Source: Carboxylicivirga fragile | GTDB taxonomy: Bacteria > Bacteroidota > Bacteroidia > Bacteroidales > Marinilabiliaceae | Assembly (NCBI GenBank): GCA_025499625.1 | Contig: JAFMVD010000002.1 | Location: 1 to 64,000 of the forward strand | Reading direction: 5' to 3' | DNA: 64,000 nucleotides | In this document: positions 48,856 through 55,382 of the stretch, one piece after another | Layout of the letters: each line of letters opens with the position of its first letter | Position numbering within the stretch: position 1 is the first letter of the stretch | Program-made: the position numbers and the translations under genes | Notes under the pieces: model-generated | The model's database searches: none | Seen by the model: only the letters and a program-made list of their open reading frames with translations | What the model was told of the DNA's origin: nothing

Positions 48856-49251
48856 ATGAGTGAAGATTTTAACAAGGTGAAAGACTTTTTGCTTGACCTT
48901 GAATATGAGATTGTGTCAGAAGACACTAAGGAAGAATTATTTGTTATTGAAAAAGCCGAAGACGGTATTTCAAACCTAATTATCGATTGCGAAGATTCCA
49001 TCTTAATAATAGAAGGTTTACTTTTTGAAGTAAATAAGGGTTCTGAAGACTTATACAAGTCCTTACTTATAATGAACCGCCAAATTGTGCATGGGGCTTT
49101 TGTGTTGGATGAAGATGCCAAGCGTGTCATTTTCCGCGACACATTGCAACTAGAAAACCTTGACTTAAACGAATTAGAAGGAAGTTTGAATTCGCTTAAG
49201 CTTTTATTATCAGAGTACTCTGATAAATTAATCGAATTTTCAAAATTATAA
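48856..49251 (+). CDS. YbjN/YjfI-like protein (first gene of PspA cluster)
   Basis: The 131-residue protein is soluble and acidic, with alternating strands and helices: FNKVKDFLLDLEYEIVSED, IIDCEDSILIIEGLLFEV, LLIMNRQIVHGAFVLDED and VIFRDTLQLENLDLNELEGS. This is the pattern of YbjN and type III-secretion-chaperone-like folds. Its place in front of PspA matches yjfI (DUF2170) in E. coli. I do not claim sequence homology to YjfI with confidence. It is 12 bases from the pspA-like gene. Confidence 0.7.
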   Translation: MSEDFNKVKDFLLDLEYEIVSEDTKEELFVIEKAEDGISNLIIDCEDSILIIEGLLFEVNKGSEDLYKSLLIMNRQIVHGAFVLDEDAKRVIFRDTLQLENLDLNELEGSLNSLKLLLSEYSDKLIEFSKL

Positions 49252-49263
49252 AAGAAACAAACA

Positions 49264-49971
49264 ATGGGAATTTTCAATAGAATATTTCGAGTTGGTAAAG
49301 CCGAAACTCACGCCATAATTGACAAATTAGAAGATCCGATCAAAATGACCGAGCAAGGTATTCGCGATCTTAAAGTTGATCTAGACAAAAGCCTTCAGGC
49401 CTTAGCCGAAGTTAAAGCAATGGCAATTCGCAGCAAAAAAGACCTTAGTCAGAATAAATCTTTGGCTAAAAATTACGAACAGAAAGCCGTTTTACTACTC
49501 CAGAAAGCCGAGAAAGGTGAATTGGACGTGGCAGAAGCAGATCGTTTAGCTACTGAAGCTCTAACAAAAAAGGAAGAAGCTGTTGAAGCTGCAACTCGTG
49601 CTCAGGATGAAGTTACTCGTTTTGACAATAACATAGCTGGACTCGACAAAAATGTTAAAAAACTGAAGAGCACCATCTCAAGTTATGAGAATGAACTTCG
49701 TACGCTTAAGGCTCGTGCTCGTGTGAGCAGTGCTACACAAAAAATCAACAAGCAATTAAGCGGAATTGATAGTTCTGGAACAGTATCGATGCTTGAGAAA
49801 ATGAAAGAGAAAGTTGCTCAACAAGAAGCTTTATCGGAAGCTTACGGTGAAATTAGTAATGAAAACCGCAGTTTAGACGATGAAATTGATGATGTACTTT
49901 CTGAAAAAAATGTGAAAGCTTCAAATTCATTGGAAGAACTAAAAGCTAAGCTTAAGGACAAAAGTGAATAA
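49264..49971 (+). CDS. PspA/IM30 (Vipp1) family membrane-stress protein
   Basis: The 235-residue protein is a long helical coil: MGIFNRIFRVGKAETHAII, then LEDPIKMTEQGIRDLKVDLDK and heptad-like repeats through about residue 190. This is the PspA/IM30 pattern, in which helices form ESCRT-III-like assemblies that bind damaged membrane. The amphipathic start GIFNRIFR should insert in lipid. It is about the length of E. coli PspA (222). E. coli YjfJ, the PspA paralogue in the yjf cluster, is the best positional match. It follows the YbjN-like gene by 12 bases. Confidence 0.92.
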   Translation: MGIFNRIFRVGKAETHAIIDKLEDPIKMTEQGIRDLKVDLDKSLQALAEVKAMAIRSKKDLSQNKSLAKNYEQKAVLLLQKAEKGELDVAEADRLATEALTKKEEAVEAATRAQDEVTRFDNNIAGLDKNVKKLKSTISSYENELRTLKARARVSSATQKINKQLSGIDSSGTVSMLEKMKEKVAQQEALSEAYGEISNENRSLDDEIDDVLSEKNVKASNSLEELKAKLKDKSE

Positions 49972-49992
49972 GTAGCGTCAAGCATTCAAACT

Positions 49993-50541
49993 ATGGGATT
50001 ATTCGATATTTTTAAAAAGAAAGAAGCACATTACGATAGCACCAACATCAGGGTTCAAGACCTTGATGTTGGTTTTGTATTTGAATACGACTTATCAACT
50101 TGGATAGTTGAGGCTATAATGGAATACGATTGGGGAGATAATTATTTCACCCGCGAATTTCAGATTAACAATGGCAGCGAGACTCGATTCCTTGGAATAG
50201 AAGATGACGATGAGTTGTCAATTTCTTTTATGCAAAAGGTTAAAGTAAGAGCATTACAAGACGATTTAACCGACATCTTAATCTCTCGCCAGCAACCACC
50301 TAAAAAAATTACGTACAAAGGCGTTGTTTATTTCCTTGAAAAGGAATCACCGGGCTATTTTCATAACATCACCAAAGGTGGTGAGTGGGAAGAGTTTCGC
50401 TCGTGGGATTTTGAAGATGAAGACGGTAAGCAGCTTTTGTGCATTGAACAATGGGATGAAAAAGAATTTGAAGCTTCGATTGGACTTAGCTTAAAAGAAT
50501 TTGAAATCTCAAACATATTACCTGGCGAAGACAATAAATAA
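49993..50541 (+). CDS. DUF4178 domain protein
   Basis: The 182-residue product begins MGLFDIFKKKEAHYDS and contains LDVGFVFEYDLSTWIVEAIMEYDWGD and FQINNGSETRFLGIEDDDE. A beta-rich GVVYFLEKESPGYF region follows. These match DUF4178, a domain I recall near PspA, DUF350 and polyamine enzymes. In the E. coli yjf cluster YjfK occupies this position. No enzymatic residues are evident; it is probably an adaptor. It starts 21 bases after the PspA-type gene. Confidence 0.8.
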   Translation: MGLFDIFKKKEAHYDSTNIRVQDLDVGFVFEYDLSTWIVEAIMEYDWGDNYFTREFQINNGSETRFLGIEDDDELSISFMQKVKVRALQDDLTDILISRQQPPKKITYKGVVYFLEKESPGYFHNITKGGEWEEFRSWDFEDEDGKQLLCIEQWDEKEFEASIGLSLKEFEISNILPGEDNK

Positions 50542-50574
50542 GAATAATATAGTGGTACCCAAACCCAAATAATT

Positions 50575-51390
50575 ATGAGTAACGGAATTGCAAAAATTAT
50601 AATCGCCGTTATTATCGGTTTTTTTGTATTAAGATCGTGTAATAACTGCACAGGAAGTAGCAGCAGTCGCTCTTCTTCGACGACACAAAAATGGCAAAAA
50701 ACGCCTGTTGATAAACTCATTACTTCGCTCAATAGCGAGCAGAACTATTCCATCATCTTATTAGATATGGATTCGAGAAGTAGTAAATACTATCATCAAT
50801 ACAACATCATTGTTGAAAAAGCTGATACCGTAGTTTCTAAAACCACAGACTGGGAAGAAGTACCAGATGTGTTTTTCGATGCTAATGTGGATAACATGGG
50901 CATGGAAATAGTAACTCGTAAAGATGGTGTACTAAGCAAAACGGCTAGTCCTGCAGGATATAACCACTATGTGGGCAATCCAAAATACGGACAGTGGGAA
51001 GAACGCAATGGTTCTTCATTCTGGTCGTTCTATGGAAAATATGCCTTTATGTCTTCCATGTTTAACATGATGACCTATCCAGCGCGTCGTTCGTATTACA
51101 ACGATTATTATGGCGGTGGCTATTACGGATCACGTCCTTATTATGGTCCATCAGGTCGTAATGTATATGGCACCAACACCTACACTTCATCTGGCGCAGG
51201 TAAGAGTAGCACATGGGGCAACAAACCATCAAGCTTCAAACAAAGTGTAAGAAGTGATGTAAAACGATCGGCCACAAGGAGCAGTTCTCGTTCCTACTCT
51301 TCAAGTTCGAGTTATTCGAAGAAAAGCCGTAGTTCGAGTCGTTACAGCAGTTCATCATCTCGCAGTCGCAGTGGCGGATTTGGCAAATAA
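50575..51390 (+). CDS. Membrane-anchored Ser/Arg/Tyr-rich protein ending in GGFGK
   Basis: The 271-residue protein has one N-terminal membrane segment (IAKIIIAVIIGFFVL) followed by a Cys pair (SCNNC) that could be a lipoprotein-like anchor. A globular part spans about residues 45-165. The last 100 residues are rich in Gly, Tyr, Ser and Arg: YYGGGYYGSRPYYGPSG, then KRSATRSSSRSYSSSSSYS and a C-terminus SRSRSGGFGK. The KRSATRSSSRS and GGFG pieces resemble the tail of E. coli YgiB/YjfM (DUF1190) as I remember it. I infer a possible target of modification in this cluster. It lies 33 bases after the DUF4178 gene. Confidence 0.7.
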   Translation: MSNGIAKIIIAVIIGFFVLRSCNNCTGSSSSRSSSTTQKWQKTPVDKLITSLNSEQNYSIILLDMDSRSSKYYHQYNIIVEKADTVVSKTTDWEEVPDVFFDANVDNMGMEIVTRKDGVLSKTASPAGYNHYVGNPKYGQWEERNGSSFWSFYGKYAFMSSMFNMMTYPARRSYYNDYYGGGYYGSRPYYGPSGRNVYGTNTYTSSGAGKSSTWGNKPSSFKQSVRSDVKRSATRSSSRSYSSSSSYSKKSRSSSRYSSSSSRSRSGGFGK

Positions 51391-51410
51391 TCACCCAAAA
51401 CTTGATAAAC

Positions 51411-52280
51411 ATGACATTTTCAGATATTTCAACAATACTATATGATGCCGTTGCTTACATAGCTGTTGGCTTTATTATCTTTTTCGTGGGTAAGTTAGTT
51501 TACCAATTAGTTAATCGCGATTTTAACATTAAAGAAGAATTAGTTGAGAAAGACAACCTGGCATTTTCATTTGCCCATGTTGGTTATTTCATTGGTTTGT
51601 TATTGGCGGTTGGTAGCGCCATTGTTGGGCCAACACAAGGTTTAGTAAACGACATTATTGACATTGCCATTTATGGTGGACTAGGTATCATTTTACTAAA
51701 CCTTTCTATTTGGCTCAACGATAAAATAATTCTTCGTAAGTTCTCCGTTAAAAAGGAAATCATCGAAGATCGCAATGCTGGGACGGGTGTTATTGAAGGT
51801 GCCATCTCTATTGCATCGGGTTTAATAATTTTTGGCGCAGTTACTGGCGAAAGTGGCAACCTTACACAAGGCATAAGTTCGGCTGTTGTTTTTTGGTTAG
51901 CTGGTCAAGTAGCCTTATTTATTACTGCTGCTGCTTATCAACTTATCACGCCTTACGATGTACATGAGCACATCGAGAAAGACAATGTAGCTGTTGGAGT
52001 AGGTTTTGCGGGTGCACTAATCGCCATTGCTAACCTAATTCGCCATGCCATTACAGGTGATTTCGAAGGTTGGGGACTTACTTTTGGAGAAGCAGGCTTT
52101 GAATTAGTGCTAGGTATCATCTTATTACCTGTCATGCGCTTCTTAACCGATAAGATTCTTTTACCGGGTCAGCGTTTAACTGACGAAATTATCAATCAGG
52201 AACACCCAAACATTGGTGCTTCTATTATTGAGGCCTTTGCTTACATAGGCGGCTCCATAATGATTACATGGTGCCTGTAA
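51411..52280 (+). CDS. Tandem DUF350 membrane protein
   Basis: The 289-residue protein is almost all membrane-embedded, with about eight helices in two similar halves. The first has YIAVGFIIFFVGKLVYQLV, ELVEKDNLAFSFAHVGYFIG and YGGLGIILLNLSIWLNDKI. The second repeats the pattern with FWLAGQVALFITAAAYQLI, HIEKDNVAVGVGFAGALIAI and LGIILLPVMRFLTDKI. The repeated EKDNxAxxxxxxG box is diagnostic of DUF350. YjfL is the E. coli counterpart. The ATG at 51411 is chosen over a TTG three codons earlier. A strong terminator follows. Confidence 0.88.
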   Translation: MTFSDISTILYDAVAYIAVGFIIFFVGKLVYQLVNRDFNIKEELVEKDNLAFSFAHVGYFIGLLLAVGSAIVGPTQGLVNDIIDIAIYGGLGIILLNLSIWLNDKIILRKFSVKKEIIEDRNAGTGVIEGAISIASGLIIFGAVTGESGNLTQGISSAVVFWLAGQVALFITAAAYQLITPYDVHEHIEKDNVAVGVGFAGALIAIANLIRHAITGDFEGWGLTFGEAGFELVLGIILLPVMRFLTDKILLPGQRLTDEIINQEHPNIGASIIEAFAYIGGSIMITWCL

Positions 52281-52321
52281 AAGGAGATCTCTAGATTATA
52301 GATTACAAGAATATAGACTTA

Positions 52322-52355
52322 AATTAACCCTGGAGCAATCTAGGGTTAATTTTTT
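52322..52355 (+). terminator. Intrinsic terminator after DUF350
   Basis: AATTAACCCT (52322-52331) pairs perfectly with AGGGTTAATT (52342-52351) around a ten-base loop, and the stem runs into T6. It divides the cluster into a five-gene PspA/DUF350 unit and a three-gene polyamine/channel unit. Confidence 0.85.
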
Positions 52356-52390
52356 GTCATATCATTTGATGACATTGAATAAGCTCAATA

Positions 52391-53944
52391 ATGTTTAAGA
52401 TCCAAAATAAATATTCGGCCATTTTAAAAGCTGCCATCTTTGCAACTGGCTTTAGTGGCATTGTTGCCGAATATCTTCTTTCAACCTTGGCCACCTATTT
52501 TTTAGGCGATTCCATTTTTCAATGGGCCATGATTGTTTCAACCATGCTCTTCACAATGGGTATTGGTAGTCGTATCAGTAAAGTTTTTAAAACACGCTTA
52601 ACCGAAAAGTTTCTCATTCTTGAGTTTGCCTTATCGCTAGTAGTTGCTTTTTCTCCTCTGATTGTATATACGGCATCGGCCTACACCAATTCCATTGGCA
52701 TACTTATCTATTTTTTCTGTATGCTAATTGGAACATTAATTGGAATGGAAATTCCATTAGTGATGCGCATCAACGATGAATACGAAGATCTACGCATTAA
52801 CATCTCAAATGTGCTTGAAAAAGATTACTACGGCAGCTTGCTCGGAGGTATCTTCTTTGCTTTTATCGGACTACCCATAATGGGATTGACTTACACGCCC
52901 TTTCTATTAGGAGTTGTTAATTTTACGGTTGCACTTGCAGTTTTCTTTTTTCTTCGCAAGATGATTAAGCCTAGTTACCGAAAGGCTTTAAGCATATCGA
53001 TGGTCGCTATATCACTCATAATTGTTGCTGGTGTATACTTGGCTGACCCAATCATACAATATGGCGAACAGAAAAAATACAAGGACAAAGTAATTTACGC
53101 AGAACAAACACGTTATCAACGCATCGTTATCACCCAATGGGAAGATAACCATTGGCTGTACTTAAATGGCAATCAGCAACTATGCTCCATGGATGAAGTT
53201 ATGTATCACGAGCCATTGGTTCATCCGGCCATGTCACTTCACCCTCACCCAGTCAATATTCTAGTTTTAGGTGGTGGCGATGGTTGCGCTGTTCGTGAGA
53301 TATTAAAATACCCGAGTGTTCAGTCAATTAAATTGGTGGATTTAGATCCAGCCATGACTAACTTAGGTAAAGAACATCCTGTTCTGCTTGATATGAATAA
53401 AAACTCCATGCATCATCCAAAGTTGGAGATTATTAATACAGATGGCTATCAGTACATTTCAGACAATCAAGATTTTTACGATGTCATCATCATAGATTTG
53501 CCCGATCCTCGATCTGTTGAACTAGGCCGCTTATATTCGAGCGAATTCTACAGCATATGCCATAAACATTTGCGGCCGGAAGGTATGATTGTTACGCAGG
53601 CTGGCAGCCCTTACTTTGCAACAAAAGCTTATAATTGCATACAAAAAACCATGAGGGATGCTGGATTCAAAACCATACCCTTACATAACCAAGTATTAAC
53701 ACTGGGCGAATGGGGTTGGTCTTTGGGAATTAAAACAGAACGTGAAATTGATTTGAAAAAGCAATTACAATCCTTAACTTATGACGGAATTTCGACCCAA
53801 TGGATTAATCACGAAGCCATGCAACTAATTACGTCGTTTGGTAAGGATTTCTTTCCGGGAGCTAGTGATTCAGTTAGAGTTAACCGAATTCACGACCCGG
53901 TTTTATATAAGTATTATTTAAAGGGCAATTGGGATTTGTATTAA
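52391..53944 (+). CDS. Membrane-anchored spermidine synthase-like aminopropyltransferase
   Basis: The N-terminal 225 residues contain about seven membrane helices (AIFATGFSGIVAEYLLSTL, FCMLIGTLIGMEIPLVM, FLLGVVNFTVALAVFFFL). The rest is a spermidine-synthase fold: VLVLGGGDGCAVREILKY-type glycine loop (LVLGGGDGCAVREIL), LVDLDPAMTNLG binding the nucleoside, and IIDLPDPRSVELGRLYSSEF with the catalytic Asp. Spermidine synthases transfer aminopropyl from decarboxylated SAM. The next gene, an AdoMet decarboxylase, would supply it. The polyamine acceptor is unknown. At 517 residues it is almost twice the size of SpeE because of the membrane part. Confidence 0.9.
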   Translation: MFKIQNKYSAILKAAIFATGFSGIVAEYLLSTLATYFLGDSIFQWAMIVSTMLFTMGIGSRISKVFKTRLTEKFLILEFALSLVVAFSPLIVYTASAYTNSIGILIYFFCMLIGTLIGMEIPLVMRINDEYEDLRINISNVLEKDYYGSLLGGIFFAFIGLPIMGLTYTPFLLGVVNFTVALAVFFFLRKMIKPSYRKALSISMVAISLIIVAGVYLADPIIQYGEQKKYKDKVIYAEQTRYQRIVITQWEDNHWLYLNGNQQLCSMDEVMYHEPLVHPAMSLHPHPVNILVLGGGDGCAVREILKYPSVQSIKLVDLDPAMTNLGKEHPVLLDMNKNSMHHPKLEIINTDGYQYISDNQDFYDVIIIDLPDPRSVELGRLYSSEFYSICHKHLRPEGMIVTQAGSPYFATKAYNCIQKTMRDAGFKTIPLHNQVLTLGEWGWSLGIKTEREIDLKKQLQSLTYDGISTQWINHEAMQLITSFGKDFFPGASDSVRVNRIHDPVLYKYYLKGNWDLY

Positions 53945-53973
53945 AACCAACGAAGCTTAACAGAAACAACGCA

Positions 53974-54345
53974 ATGAACAACATAAATCCAGTAAATCTG
54001 CCACCACAAGTTTTTAACCTTAAAGGTTGGATAGAATTAACTGAATCCTCACAGTTGAAAACCTTATTTGGTGAACAATTAAAAAATGCCGATTTTAAAG
54101 TATTAAACTTTTCAGATCATCATTTTCCGCTGAATGGCTACACGGCTTTTTGGCTTTTAGCCGAATCGCATTTGGCATTACACACATTTACTGAAAGCGG
54201 TTGGTGCTACATCGAGTTAAGCAGTTGCAACAAAGAAAAAGCACAGCTCTTCAAAGCGGCATGCGAAAAACTGCCTCATGCACTAAAATGGGATAGCGAT
54301 GTGGAAGAGCTAAGTTGCGAGACTAACAATAACGTTCACTCATAA
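53974..54345 (+). CDS. speD: Minimal S-adenosylmethionine decarboxylase
   Basis: The ATG at 53974 gives 123 residues; the frame is open to an upstream TTG that overlaps the previous gene and looks unreal. The protein contains LLAESHLALHTFTESGWCY, in which Glu64-Ser65 is the expected self-cleavage site that leaves a pyruvoyl group on Ser65. His70 and Cys85 (IELSSCNKEK) sit at the same spacing as Ser63, His68 and Cys83 of the Thermotoga enzyme. It makes decarboxylated SAM for the adjacent aminopropyltransferase. It lies 29 bases after that gene and 11 bases before a channel gene. Confidence 0.9.
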   Translation: MNNINPVNLPPQVFNLKGWIELTESSQLKTLFGEQLKNADFKVLNFSDHHFPLNGYTAFWLLAESHLALHTFTESGWCYIELSSCNKEKAQLFKAACEKLPHALKWDSDVEELSCETNNNVHS

Positions 54346-54356
54346 CACAATTTGCT

Positions 54357-55382
54357 ATGAAGAAAAAACTTGGTTTAGCTGTTGGTTTTGTCATATACCT
54401 CTGCCTCATCTACGTTATATCGGTGCTTGAAAGAGGCGATGCCAATGCCAATATCAAATCGCTAACCGATGCCCTTTGGTATGCCATTGTTACCTTGACG
54501 ACCGTAGGCTATGGTGACTTTTACCCTGTTACACCCTGGGGTAAAGTAGTAGGATTATTTGTAATACTTGGTAGTCTGGGTGTAATCGGCTACTTCATTG
54601 GTGAAATAAGCAGTAGAATAAACATTTATATGGAAAAGAAGAAAACAGGGTTCTTCGGAACAGATTTCGAAGACCATTACCTAATTATTGGATGGAGTGA
54701 ATTTGGACGAAAAGTTGCTGATCAGGTTTTTCCAGCTGGACATAAAATTGCCTTCGTAACAAACTCAAAAAACGACCTTGAACTCCTCAAGGATTTATAC
54801 CCTCACGAACAATGTTTCGGAATGTTTGCCGATTATAACAACATGCAAGCTTACGAAAAAGCAAACATCCTAAAGAGTAAAGCTGTATTTATCAACTTCA
54901 CCGAAGATACCGAAACACTGGTATTTGTTCTTAATCTTAAAAAGGCATTTCCAAATCTCAACATCATTGTCAATTGCAGCAACCCCGATCTGAAAGAAAC
55001 ATTGATTAGCACTGGCATAACACATGTAGTGTCTCGCAGCGAAGTAGCTTCACGAATGGTGGCTAGTTACCTGTTTGAGCCACATGTGGCAGAATATACG
55101 GAAGATTTGATTGCAACTAGCATTGCTCACGACGATCAGGATATTCAGCAATTTAAAGTCACCCAAAACAACCCCTATCTAGGCAAAAAATATTTCGATG
55201 CCTTTGTAGAGATGAAGAAAGATCTTAACGTCATTTTAATTGGTTTGGTCATCGACAATAAGGTTGACAAAAACCCAAGCGACGATCAAAAAATAGAGCT
55301 CGACCAATACATCATAGTTATTTCATGCGGAAGTGACAAGAAAGCTTTGGAGAGTACCTTTGGAGTACAAGAGGGAGTGTAG
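54357..55382 (+). CDS. Two-helix potassium channel with RCK/TrkA domains
   Basis: The 341-residue protein has TM1 (GLAVGFVIYLCLIYVISVL), a pore helix with the selectivity filter TTVGYGDFYPV, and TM2 (VVGLFVILGSLGVIGYFIG). The filter TVGYGD is that of K+ channels. A TrkA-N/RCK domain follows (DHYLIIGWSEFGRKVADQV, nucleotide-binding Gly motif), then a TrkA-C-like part from about residue 255. Regulation by a bound ligand (NAD(H), Ca2+ or another) is inferred from the family. It starts 11 bases after the decarboxylase gene, so channel and polyamine enzymes are transcribed together; polyamines are known blockers of some K+ channels. Confidence 0.93.
   Translation: MKKKLGLAVGFVIYLCLIYVISVLERGDANANIKSLTDALWYAIVTLTTVGYGDFYPVTPWGKVVGLFVILGSLGVIGYFIGEISSRINIYMEKKKTGFFGTDFEDHYLIIGWSEFGRKVADQVFPAGHKIAFVTNSKNDLELLKDLYPHEQCFGMFADYNNMQAYEKANILKSKAVFINFTEDTETLVFVLNLKKAFPNLNIIVNCSNPDLKETLISTGITHVVSRSEVASRMVASYLFEPHVAEYTEDLIATSIAHDDQDIQQFKVTQNNPYLGKKYFDAFVEMKKDLNVILIGLVIDNKVDKNPSDDQKIELDQYIIVISCGSDKKALESTFGVQEGV

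Follow-up and report, generated by a model that had tools for sequence, protein, structure and literature searches.

A co-inherited membrane aminopropyltransferase module in Carboxylicivirga fragile and a candidate acceptor lysine at the end of its tail protein

Related systems and the present locus

Pederick 2023 reportedly described the Escherichia coli yjfIJKLMC and ygiBC systems as peptide-spermidine ligases. The eight-gene block considered here, located in a window of 64,000 nucleotides of Carboxylicivirga fragile (the whole stretch analysed), has in common with them YjfI, PspA and DUF350, as well as a tail of GGFG/GGYG type, borne by the lipoproteins YjfM and YgiB in E. coli and by a predicted lipoprotein here, and the parallel with E. 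coli drawn in a previous sequence-only reading is supported by the gene order yjfIJKLMC. The differences concern the enzymes, an ATP-grasp ligase in E. coli and SpeD plus a membrane aminopropyltransferase (TM-APT) here; the membrane and accessory proteins, a single DUF350 with DUF2491 instead of DUF4178 there and a double DUF350 with DUF4178 in C. fragile; and the tail itself, the E. coli lipoproteins ending in Gly-Gly and the C. fragile tail protein in Gly-Lys. In hypusine and silaffin-type lysine polyamination, a polyamine-like chain is likewise found on a protein lysine side chain; the resemblance is to the product proposed below only, and those systems use other enzymes and internal lysines, with no membrane tails.

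The cluster alone is not new, because this neighbourhood type has been published as the 'second group' of Ravi 2024 (PMC11237479), a CesT/Tir-PspA operon with a membrane spermine synthase (AAN56744-AAN56747). Shared with that group, as far as the available text of the paper goes, are the CesT-PspA dyad, DUF4178, the 8-TM DUF350 and the 7-TM spermine synthase fusion, together with a lipoprotein, which carries the Ctha_1186 domain in theirs and is a predicted lipoprotein here. The same portion of the paper names SpeD and the K+ channel with other groups but not with the second, whereas both are present in C. fragile, and makes no mention of a C-terminal lysine tag. Its third group (ATP-grasp, SpeD, K+ channel; PMC11237479) also has the AdoMet decarboxylase and the channel but includes a GSP-synthetase-like ATP-grasp, and GSP_synth-type matches number 0 in the whole C. 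fragile genome, which bears out the earlier remark that no ATP-grasp partner is found locally. The Pseudomonas aeruginosa operon bacABCDEF, for which the BacA structure is known and genetic tests exist, shares the DUF2170/YjfI and PspA core, and according to its authors, in the part of the article available, a spermidine synthase is neither in nor around it (PMC10948618).

What is new here is that the protein previously labelled 'Ser/Arg-rich' is a predicted lipoprotein with a near-invariant terminal Gly-Lys. Among titles and abstract openings, neither aminopropylation of a protein lysine nor such a lysine at a C-terminus nor an aminopropyltransferase of the periplasm was described, earlier mention being possible in Li 2019, Iyer 2009 and Pederick 2023; at the same depth, the literature on DUF350, DUF4178, SpeD/PspA and the yjf genes did not describe a lysine-tail modification.

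Gene content and co-inheritance of the block

The ORF check of 48856-55382 recovered all eight plus-strand genes at the coordinates read before, running together with short gaps, the largest (110 nt) separating the double DUF350 from the TM-APT gene (Table 1). In the Pfam/NCBIfam comparison the first gene scored 175.5 bits for CesT_Tir_1 (PF22550); its former designation as YbjN-like passes the threshold, but is the weaker label because 23.8 bits barely exceeds the cut-off of 22. PspA (PF04012, 153.8 bits), DUF4178 (PF13785, 85.4 bits) and DUF350 (two stretches, 196.8 bits) were recovered in the same comparison, and the tail protein matched zero families above cut-off. The DUF350 model has eight long helices, with four E/D..N motifs preceding bundle helices 2, 4, 6 and 8, and its fold search returned zero matches at E <= 0.001. 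Elongation factor P, a lysine-modified protein, supplied the top-ranked chains in the fold search with DUF4178 (E 0.048, not significant), its domain I aligning over 63 columns with a TM to target of 0.61 and E 0.57; with zero PDB matches at E <= 0.001, an EF-P-like fold for DUF4178 was dropped.

Table 1. Features of the block, in positions of the window
Feature	Coordinates	Strand	Basis
CesT/Tir-like chaperone, YjfI-type, PF22550	48856..49251	+	ORF + Pfam
PspA/IM30 family, YjfJ-type	49264..49971	+	ORF + Pfam
DUF4178 protein, beta-rich	49993..50541	+	ORF + Pfam; AlphaFold pLDDT 90.6
Tail protein, predicted lipoprotein; tail rich in Ser/Arg/Tyr/Gly	50575..51390	+	ORF + homologue alignment
C-terminal tail tag RSRSGGFGK	51361..51387	+	Homologue comparison
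Double DUF350	51402..52280	+	ORF + Pfam + structure model
Terminator-like hairpin between double DUF350 and TM-APT, 14 pairs	52321..52352	+	Consensus scan only
TM-APT: 7-TM domain (residues ~1-220) + aminopropyltransferase domain (~226-517)	52391..53944	+	ORF + PRK03612
SpeD-type AdoMet decarboxylase	53974..54345	+	ORF + Pfam, start corrected
RCK-gated K+ channel	54357..55382	+	Ion_trans_2 + TrkA_N (RCK)

The eight genes are a genuine co-inherited module. They occur in identical order in nine relatives (with one insert each in L062 and L063), in Plebeiobacterium (one insert) and in Labilibaculum, and the flanking contexts vary among the nine relatives; the block is absent from 6 of the 14 genomes of the genus. 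The single system proposed earlier is supported by the order kept in the nine relatives, where the eight genes were found conserved together and the second half of the block accompanies the first. DUF4178 was detected in 18 of 395 genomes, that of C. fragile included, and both SpeD and TM-APT are present in all 18, SpeD as such occurring in 80 of the 395. The most constant partners of TM-APT are DUF4178, DUF350 and the tail protein, and among 80 TM-APT loci PspA is found in 12 and CesT in 8; the core of the module is therefore TM-APT, DUF350 and DUF4178, often with SpeD, and CesT and PspA are accessory. The previous suggestion that the system senses membrane damage draws on PspA only, an accessory protein.

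With a hairpin between the fifth and sixth genes, the block may be transcribed as two units, and a stress operon containing PspA and a distinct polyamine operon, divided at this point, could be chance neighbours, a reading to which the lack of CesT/PspA at most TM-APT loci and the dispersal of block genes in G051 and G052 would also lend themselves. The evidence from the hairpin is weak, because terminator-like sites in the region number 8 against 4.6 +/- 2.3 in shuffled sequences, and chance adjacency is hardly credible given the preservation of the eight-gene order across several flanking contexts and the fact that DUF4178, DUF350 and the tail protein, all encoded before the hairpin, are the steadiest partners of the TM-APT encoded after it.

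The lysine-ended tail protein

In the aligned homologues of the tail protein Cys22 is invariant (13/13), in a lipobox that is canonical in distant homologues and reads LRSC/LKTC in the C. fragile clade. An exact Gly-Lys end was found in 45 of 46 lipoprotein homologues, compared with 13 of 1062 other ORFs. At loci that lack the lipoprotein, a GK or HK end is usually found on a different protein, in many cases a previously overlooked single-TM microprotein of 45-95 aa adjoining DUF350; the substitute carriers are unrelated proteins, namely the microprotein, Bacillota proteins that begin with a hydrophobic segment, or the DUF4178 protein. An ORF ending in GK or HK was present in 74 of 90 stretches covering the 450 nt before DUF350, versus 4 of 278 stretches of the same type upstream of other cluster genes (Fisher p ~3e-56, for loci that are homologous and hence not independent). 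All 17 loci outside those from which the pattern was derived have a lysine end, namely 10/10 plasmid loci (nine GK/HK, one VK) and 7/7 from Bacteroidota, an eighth, L322, which ends in YHK, being excluded as the genome of L225 again. The constraint acts on the protein, because the last two codons of 93 tails include every possible codon for Gly (four), His (two) and Lys (two), followed by each of the three stops; the same variety rules out an RNA- or DNA-level cause such as the ribosome site of the next gene.

The lysine tail is thus near-universal in clusters of this type. The search yielded no tail for L158 and L177 (contig start), for L172, L181 and L205, which are TM-APT genes without a nearby DUF350, for the TM-APT that comes first in L175 and for the searched part of L223; L176, also without a nearby DUF350, has only a DnaJ-like ORF ending in HK, and the lipoprotein of L218 ends in GGGKN. 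In the viral_contigs set, 27 of the 28 loci from the TM-APT search match the aminopropyltransferase domain only, and no GK- or HK-ending ORF was found in the part examined of the membrane-type viral locus L247.

Lipoproteins beside ATP-grasp ligases end in GG, SS, GS or HA in all 22 readable cases, and in Lys in 0/22; the tail ending therefore follows the enzyme type, Lys with TM-APT and G/S/A with ATP-grasp. The E. coli YjfC profile had 0 matches among the 80 TM-APT loci, so that an ATP-grasp gene lost to an assembly gap was rejected as the main reading, and the earlier view of ATP-grasp as an expected but absent part did not stand, clusters of this type mostly doing without it. Two hybrids found later (L339 and L340) combine TM-APT, SpeD and ATP-grasp with a tail ending in YGG, and neither a lysine tail nor DUF350 was found in them.

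Proposed aminopropyl transfer and polyamine supply

The TM-APT scored 134.1 bits for Spermine_synth and 576.3 bits for the membrane aminopropyltransferase PRK03612 (cut-off 472; Pfam/NCBIfam), and retains the motifs GGGDG, YHE and D..DP, which occur in 107, 109 and 109 of 110 TM-APTs, respectively, the GPA gate loop occurring in 0/110. Its catalytic residues are intact, and score and motifs predict an aminopropyltransferase. Only the positive-inside rule predicts a C-out topology, and the 30 residues that follow TM7 likewise contain about four Lys+Arg.

Taken with the tails, these data are tentatively read, at close to an even chance, as membrane-coupled aminopropylation of the tail protein's terminal lysine. 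SpeD would decarboxylate AdoMet in the cytoplasm, and TM-APT, with DUF350 as a putative membrane partner, would move the aminopropyl group of decarboxylated AdoMet to the terminal lysine of the membrane-anchored tail protein encoded in its own cluster, at the side-chain amine; in C. fragile this protein is the predicted lipoprotein that ends in ...RSRSGGFGK. The product would be a protein-bound polyamine on the outward face of the inner membrane, and CesT, PspA and the K+ channel may couple the tail to the membrane state; we infer the acceptor lysine, the membrane side and what DUF350, DUF4178, PspA and the channel do. For an outer-side acceptor, either decarboxylated AdoMet would have to be outside or the aminopropyltransferase domain inside. 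In the ATP-grasp version (E. coli YjfM/YjfC), a Gly-Gly end amidated with spermidine would give a similar product. Clearly short of even is the wider proposal of a dedicated C-terminal-lysine aminopropylation system across many phyla, with an outward-facing catalytic domain and at least four kinds of carrier, to which ATP-grasp clusters would be the equivalent on Gly-Gly. As to the earlier claim that the system makes or attaches a polyamine derivative, the membrane polyamine link is supported and is narrowed to a candidate acceptor, the terminal lysine.

The intact catalytic motifs would also suit a membrane-bound synthase of free polyamine (spermidine, spermine or aminopropyl-agmatine), with transfer of the product across the membrane. 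The lysine tail would then stay unmodified and serve in docking or sensing, by binding to the enzyme, to DUF350 or to the membrane, and the local polyamine level would be what PspA and the K+ channel respond to. This possibility, which we place some way below even, fits the amine oxidase present in 31 of 54 class-B loci, as expected for a free exported polyamine, 27 of the 32 sequences examined carrying a signal of twin-arginine type (loose pattern), and the TM-APT without lysine tail in L339 and L340. Nevertheless, it accounts neither for Lys as the last residue on unrelated carriers nor for the G/S/A endings beside ATP-grasp ligases, and the genome itself encodes SpeA, agmatinase and a carboxynorspermidine decarboxylase fragment, genes for a SpeD-independent route, so that spermidine need not come from the cluster SpeD.

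The SpeD start is placed at ATG 53974 (123 aa), rather than TTG 53929, because homologues start there. The protein reaches 50.8 bits for Pfam AdoMet_dc (cut-off 25) and 46.2 bits for the NCBIfam equivalog TIGR03330, below the cut-off of 75.65, and keeps the equivalents of Ser63, His68 and Cys83 (class 1b). A Pro conserved in all proven AdoMetDCs, according to the available part of the source (PMC10407285), is Thr in C. fragile at the position that we assign to it, and T, A or D in 10 of 11 SpeDs of an order-level sample that includes C. fragile. These replacements might indicate an arginine decarboxylase-like enzyme (SpeDA) and an agmatine-derived product, which is very unlikely: 46 of 56 motif-readable SpeDs other than that of C. 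fragile retain the Pro, and its loss looks like local drift because the ten exceptions are nine relatives and Plebeiobacterium; furthermore, a normal SpeA is present, and with one SpeD match per genome nothing else would feed TM-APT.

Several observations count against the aminopropylation model, namely the L339/L340 hybrids, the loci without a tail, the L218 ending and the SpeD Pro replacement, as does Corynebacterium glutamicum, which matches DUF4178 and PF01564 without a SpeD match.

TM-APTs with DUF350 and DUF4178 partners are widespread, without proven function in the literature examined, and are named after spermidine synthesis, though this genome has genes of another spermidine route. 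The shared C-terminal lysine, exact in position, provides a substrate hypothesis for membrane aminopropyltransferases, offers a possible identity for an overlooked small ORF of these operons, and connects two versions of PspA-associated operons, those with a spermidine ligase and those with an aminopropyltransferase. That a TM-APT gene almost always adjoins the gene of a lysine-ended membrane-anchored protein suggests a possible decoration of protein tails with polyamine groups in bacteria, which, if true, would add a new modification to the proteins of the bacterial envelope.

Inheritance of the eight-gene block

The eight open reading frames (ORFs) that the sequence-only reading had placed on the plus strand are confirmed at their positions, and most of its family names hold, except that gene 1 encodes a CesT/Tir-type chaperone (PF22550) and not primarily a YbjN-like protein; gene 4, the Ser/Arg-rich protein (a predicted lipoprotein, here the tail lipoprotein), matches no family over cut-off in Pfam or NCBIfam. 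Because terminator-like sites such as the one within the block (see table) are common in shuffled sequence too, the eight genes may form either one or two transcripts.

Among 60 genomes (own included), DUF4178 is found in 14, SpeD (the AdoMet decarboxylase-type protein) in 11 and the full-length seven-TM membrane aminopropyltransferase, TM-APT (>130 bits), in 12. Of the 13 DUF4178-positive genomes besides the own one, nine have all eight genes in order (loci L056–L059 and L061–L065), two of them with one inserted gene, and in L060 a contig edge cuts the region off after TM-APT. The arrangements in three further genomes count against a fixed gene set: in G051, one contig carries DUF4178, the lipoprotein, TM-APT and a 31% identical PspA, a second contig carries SpeD together with CesT, and no DUF350 was seen; in G052, neither CesT nor PspA was found ahead of DUF4178, and the contig stops after DUF350; the G046 contig is short and has PspA, DUF4178 and the lipoprotein. 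Within the genus, the block is present in 8 of 14 genomes, and the other six (G005, G007–G011) gave neither DUF4178 nor SpeD, and their PF01564 matches do not exceed 39.3 bits. The genes flanking the block vary between groups of relatives, so gain or loss affects the block as a whole. The earlier proposal of a single system, which depends on co-conservation of the eight genes, withstands this comparison among relatives. Three neighbouring genes of the own genome encode SpeA, agmatinase and a truncated carboxynorspermidine decarboxylase; the last is cut by the contig edge, which keeps its score (263 bits) under the cut-off of 409. These enzymes form part of a SpeD-free spermidine route.

Core and accessory genes

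In the phylum, 395 genomes (own included) were surveyed; SpeD occurs in 80 and DUF4178 in 18, all 18 of which also carry SpeD and TM-APT (frame >500 aa). In DUF4178-positive genomes SpeD lies within the cluster, divergently next to it or in another part of the genome, and some have it as a SpeD–SpeE fusion; its constant presence, wherever placed, would fit a need of the module for decarboxylated AdoMet. Eleven SpeD-bearing, DUF4178-negative regions were opened and comprise eight TM-APT clusters with a divergent DUF4178, one SpeD–aminopropyltransferase fusion and two others. Among the SpeD-bearing regions, L317 and L318 present a different SpeD context without TM-APT, their SpeD-like ORFs (132 and 123 aa) each adjoining an ORF of 447–474 aa with a similar start; a possible RecF/AAA-like ORF lies upstream in L317.

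The best 80 TM-APT loci among the named matches listed come from Bacteroidota, Acidobacteria, Gemmatimonadetes, Desulfobacter-type bacteria, Proteobacteria, Bacillota and others, and are divided into class A (26 loci, identity ≥46%) and class B (54 loci, ≤40%). Custom profiles, which count anything in the fetched stretch (some contigs are short and some counted genes non-adjacent), give for class A DUF350 in 19, DUF4178 in 18, the lipoprotein in 20, K+ channel in 13, PspA and SpeD in 9 each, CesT in 8 and amine oxidase in 3; for class B, DUF350 and DUF4178 in 49 each, amine oxidase in 31, SpeD in 28, the lipoprotein and K+ channel in 5 each, PspA in 3 and CesT in none. TM-APT, DUF350 and DUF4178 are the core of the module, and PspA and CesT are accessory.

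Coordinates of features in the window and in other fetched loci
Locus	Position	Feature	Remark
Window	52321-52352	Terminator-like hairpin, 14 pairs	Between DUF350x2 and TM-APT, dividing genes 1-5 from 6-8
Window	53974	SpeD start	Most likely start
L162	5731-6654	Dimethylarginine dimethylaminohydrolase-type gene	Upstream of class-B cluster; PF19420 match tested here
L164	8645-9568	Dimethylarginine dimethylaminohydrolase-type gene	Upstream of class-B cluster
L325	2624-3547	Dimethylarginine dimethylaminohydrolase-type gene	Upstream of class-B cluster
L335	6542-7648	"Toxic anion resistance" gene	Alteromonas plasmid cluster, between SpeD and DUF4178, with a hypothetical gene

A C-terminal lysine on putatively anchored proteins

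In the tail lipoprotein the Cys after the N-terminal hydrophobic segment is invariant (13/13 aligned), segment and Cys recur in 39/39 homologues of 200–300 aa, and the low-complexity C-terminal region has a fixed end: exact Gly-Lys closes 45 of 46 homologues, fragments included (exception L069), among them forms of 542–576 aa in L207, L209, L215 and L233. These loci contain 1062 further ORFs of 150 aa or more, of which 13 end GK; not one of the 1062 carries GG[FYW]G in its last 40 residues, versus 28 of 46 tail proteins, counted with a slightly wider pattern ([FYWST]). In ten other families the most frequent last residue accounts for no more than 46% of sequences (TM-APT, Tyr).

In most clusters without the tail lipoprotein, the lysine end is on another carrier. 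In the Bacillota loci L220, L232 and L222, the carrier is an unlabelled protein that has an N-terminal hydrophobic segment and closes with FGK. Class-B clusters have a short ORF between DUF4178 and DUF350 (45–95 aa where the start is clear); this microprotein has one hydrophobic segment and ends mostly in GGK (Acidobacteria, Gemmatimonadetes) or YHK, SHK or HHK (Bacteroidota, others). L201, with two DUF4178–DUF350 pairs, has a microprotein in each. The DUF4178 protein is itself the carrier in L160, L226, L239, L240 and L241, where its last residues are RGFGK, GGHK, GSHK or GGK; a hydrophobic segment precedes the tail in L160, L226, L240 and L241.

Of 90 windows that cover the 450 nt upstream of DUF350 (L201, L220 and L232 entered twice), 74 contain a [GH]K-ending ORF of 40 codons or more, vs 4 of 278 control windows, namely those upstream of K+ channel (0/28), SpeD (1/58), DUF4178 (0/45), long DUF4178 (1/51), PspA (1/27), CesT (1/23), amine oxidase (0/34) and P349 (0/12); the Fisher value of 3e-56 overstates independence, since the sequences are related. 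TM-APT windows (50/110), which largely overlap the same ORF, were kept out of the control. In fourteen of the 16 misses another part of the cluster has a [GH]K end, and in L158 and L177 (contig start) none was found anywhere in it. Outside the formal count, no lysine tail was found in L172, L181 and L205, where TM-APT has no DUF350 nearby, at the first TM-APT of L175 or in the part of L223 searched; L176, also without DUF350 nearby, has only a DnaJ-like ORF ending HK, and the L218 lipoprotein ends GGGKN. In loci not used to find the pattern, a terminal Lys is present in 10/10 plasmid loci (nine GK/HK, one VK in Tritonibacter; three Burkholderia tails were found only on opposite-strand search and the Alteromonas one only in an extended region) and in 7/7 Bacteroidota class-B loci; L322 also fits and is uncounted, having the same microprotein as L225. 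In 93 tails selected by their [GH]K end, codon use at the two final residues varies freely (Gly 22/20/20/7 over four codons, His 13/11, Lys 76/17, three stops).

The ATP-grasp partner reported earlier as missing locally is absent from the own genome as far as the GSP-synthetase family is concerned, and a profile from one E. coli YjfC sequence gave no match within the best 80 TM-APT loci. For contrast, 38 peptide-spermidine ligase loci and two E. coli genes were searched, in which 22 same-strand lipoproteins (20 loci, 2 E. coli), chosen by eye as short anchored neighbours, are readable: 13 end GG (E. coli YjfM and YgiB included), 4 SS, 2 GS and 3 HA, and none (0/22) ends in Lys, while many share an RGGFG-like box further in. 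In 18 loci no short anchored neighbour or no ligase ORF was found, and an opposite-strand lipoprotein ending LRK (L286) was kept out of the count. The hybrid loci L339 and L340 combine ATP-grasp, SpeD and TM-APT, with neither lysine tail nor DUF350 found, and their tail protein ends YGG; the tail end therefore follows the ligase, not TM-APT. This combination can mean that TM-APT extends a ligase-attached amine or that it makes a free polyamine. The gene neighbourhood, including the idea of aminopropylating other substrates, is already published in the available part of Ravi 2024 (PMC11237479); no mention of the lysine tail was found in that part or in titles and abstract openings of related literature.

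Enzymes and predicted membrane side

Among 110 TM-APT sequences, GGGDG (pattern GGG[DE][GS]) is kept in 107, YHE (Y[HN]E) in 109 and D..DP in 109; the GPA gate loop occurs in none and PDP...[RK]LY[STGA] in 100, a contrast visible in comparison with solved spermidine synthases. SpeD keeps its Ser, His and Cys. The Pro after HT[WF], described in the available part of PMC10407285 as the mark of true AdoMetDCs, is missing from the SpeD of the window and from those of nine relatives and Plebeiobacterium, and all 46 other readable SpeDs retain it; the window SpeD (46.2 bits) falls below the NCBI equivalog cut-off of 75.65. The DUF350x2 model has eight long helices (pLDDT 90.1), and four E/D..N motifs ahead of helices 2, 4, 6 and 8 plausibly form a cation-handling face. 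The best Foldseek matches of the DUF4178 model (m81c7faf42259) are elongation factor P chains, non-significant.

The product, acceptor and membrane side of the module are inferred here. TM-APT has seven TM segments (109 sequences), and its Lys+Arg, in loop sums added by hand, amount to about 12.0 per protein for the N-terminal side together with loops 2-3, 4-5 and 6-7, and to about 1.2 for loops 1-2, 3-4 and 5-6; under the positive-inside rule this distribution points to N-in, hence to a catalytic domain outside, although loop 4-5 is as acid-rich as base-rich and about four Lys+Arg lie in the 30 residues after TM7. The predicted outward domain is in line with an external lipoprotein tail and with the amine oxidase's twin-arginine-type signal (27/32, loose pattern), and it would imply export of decarboxylated AdoMet.
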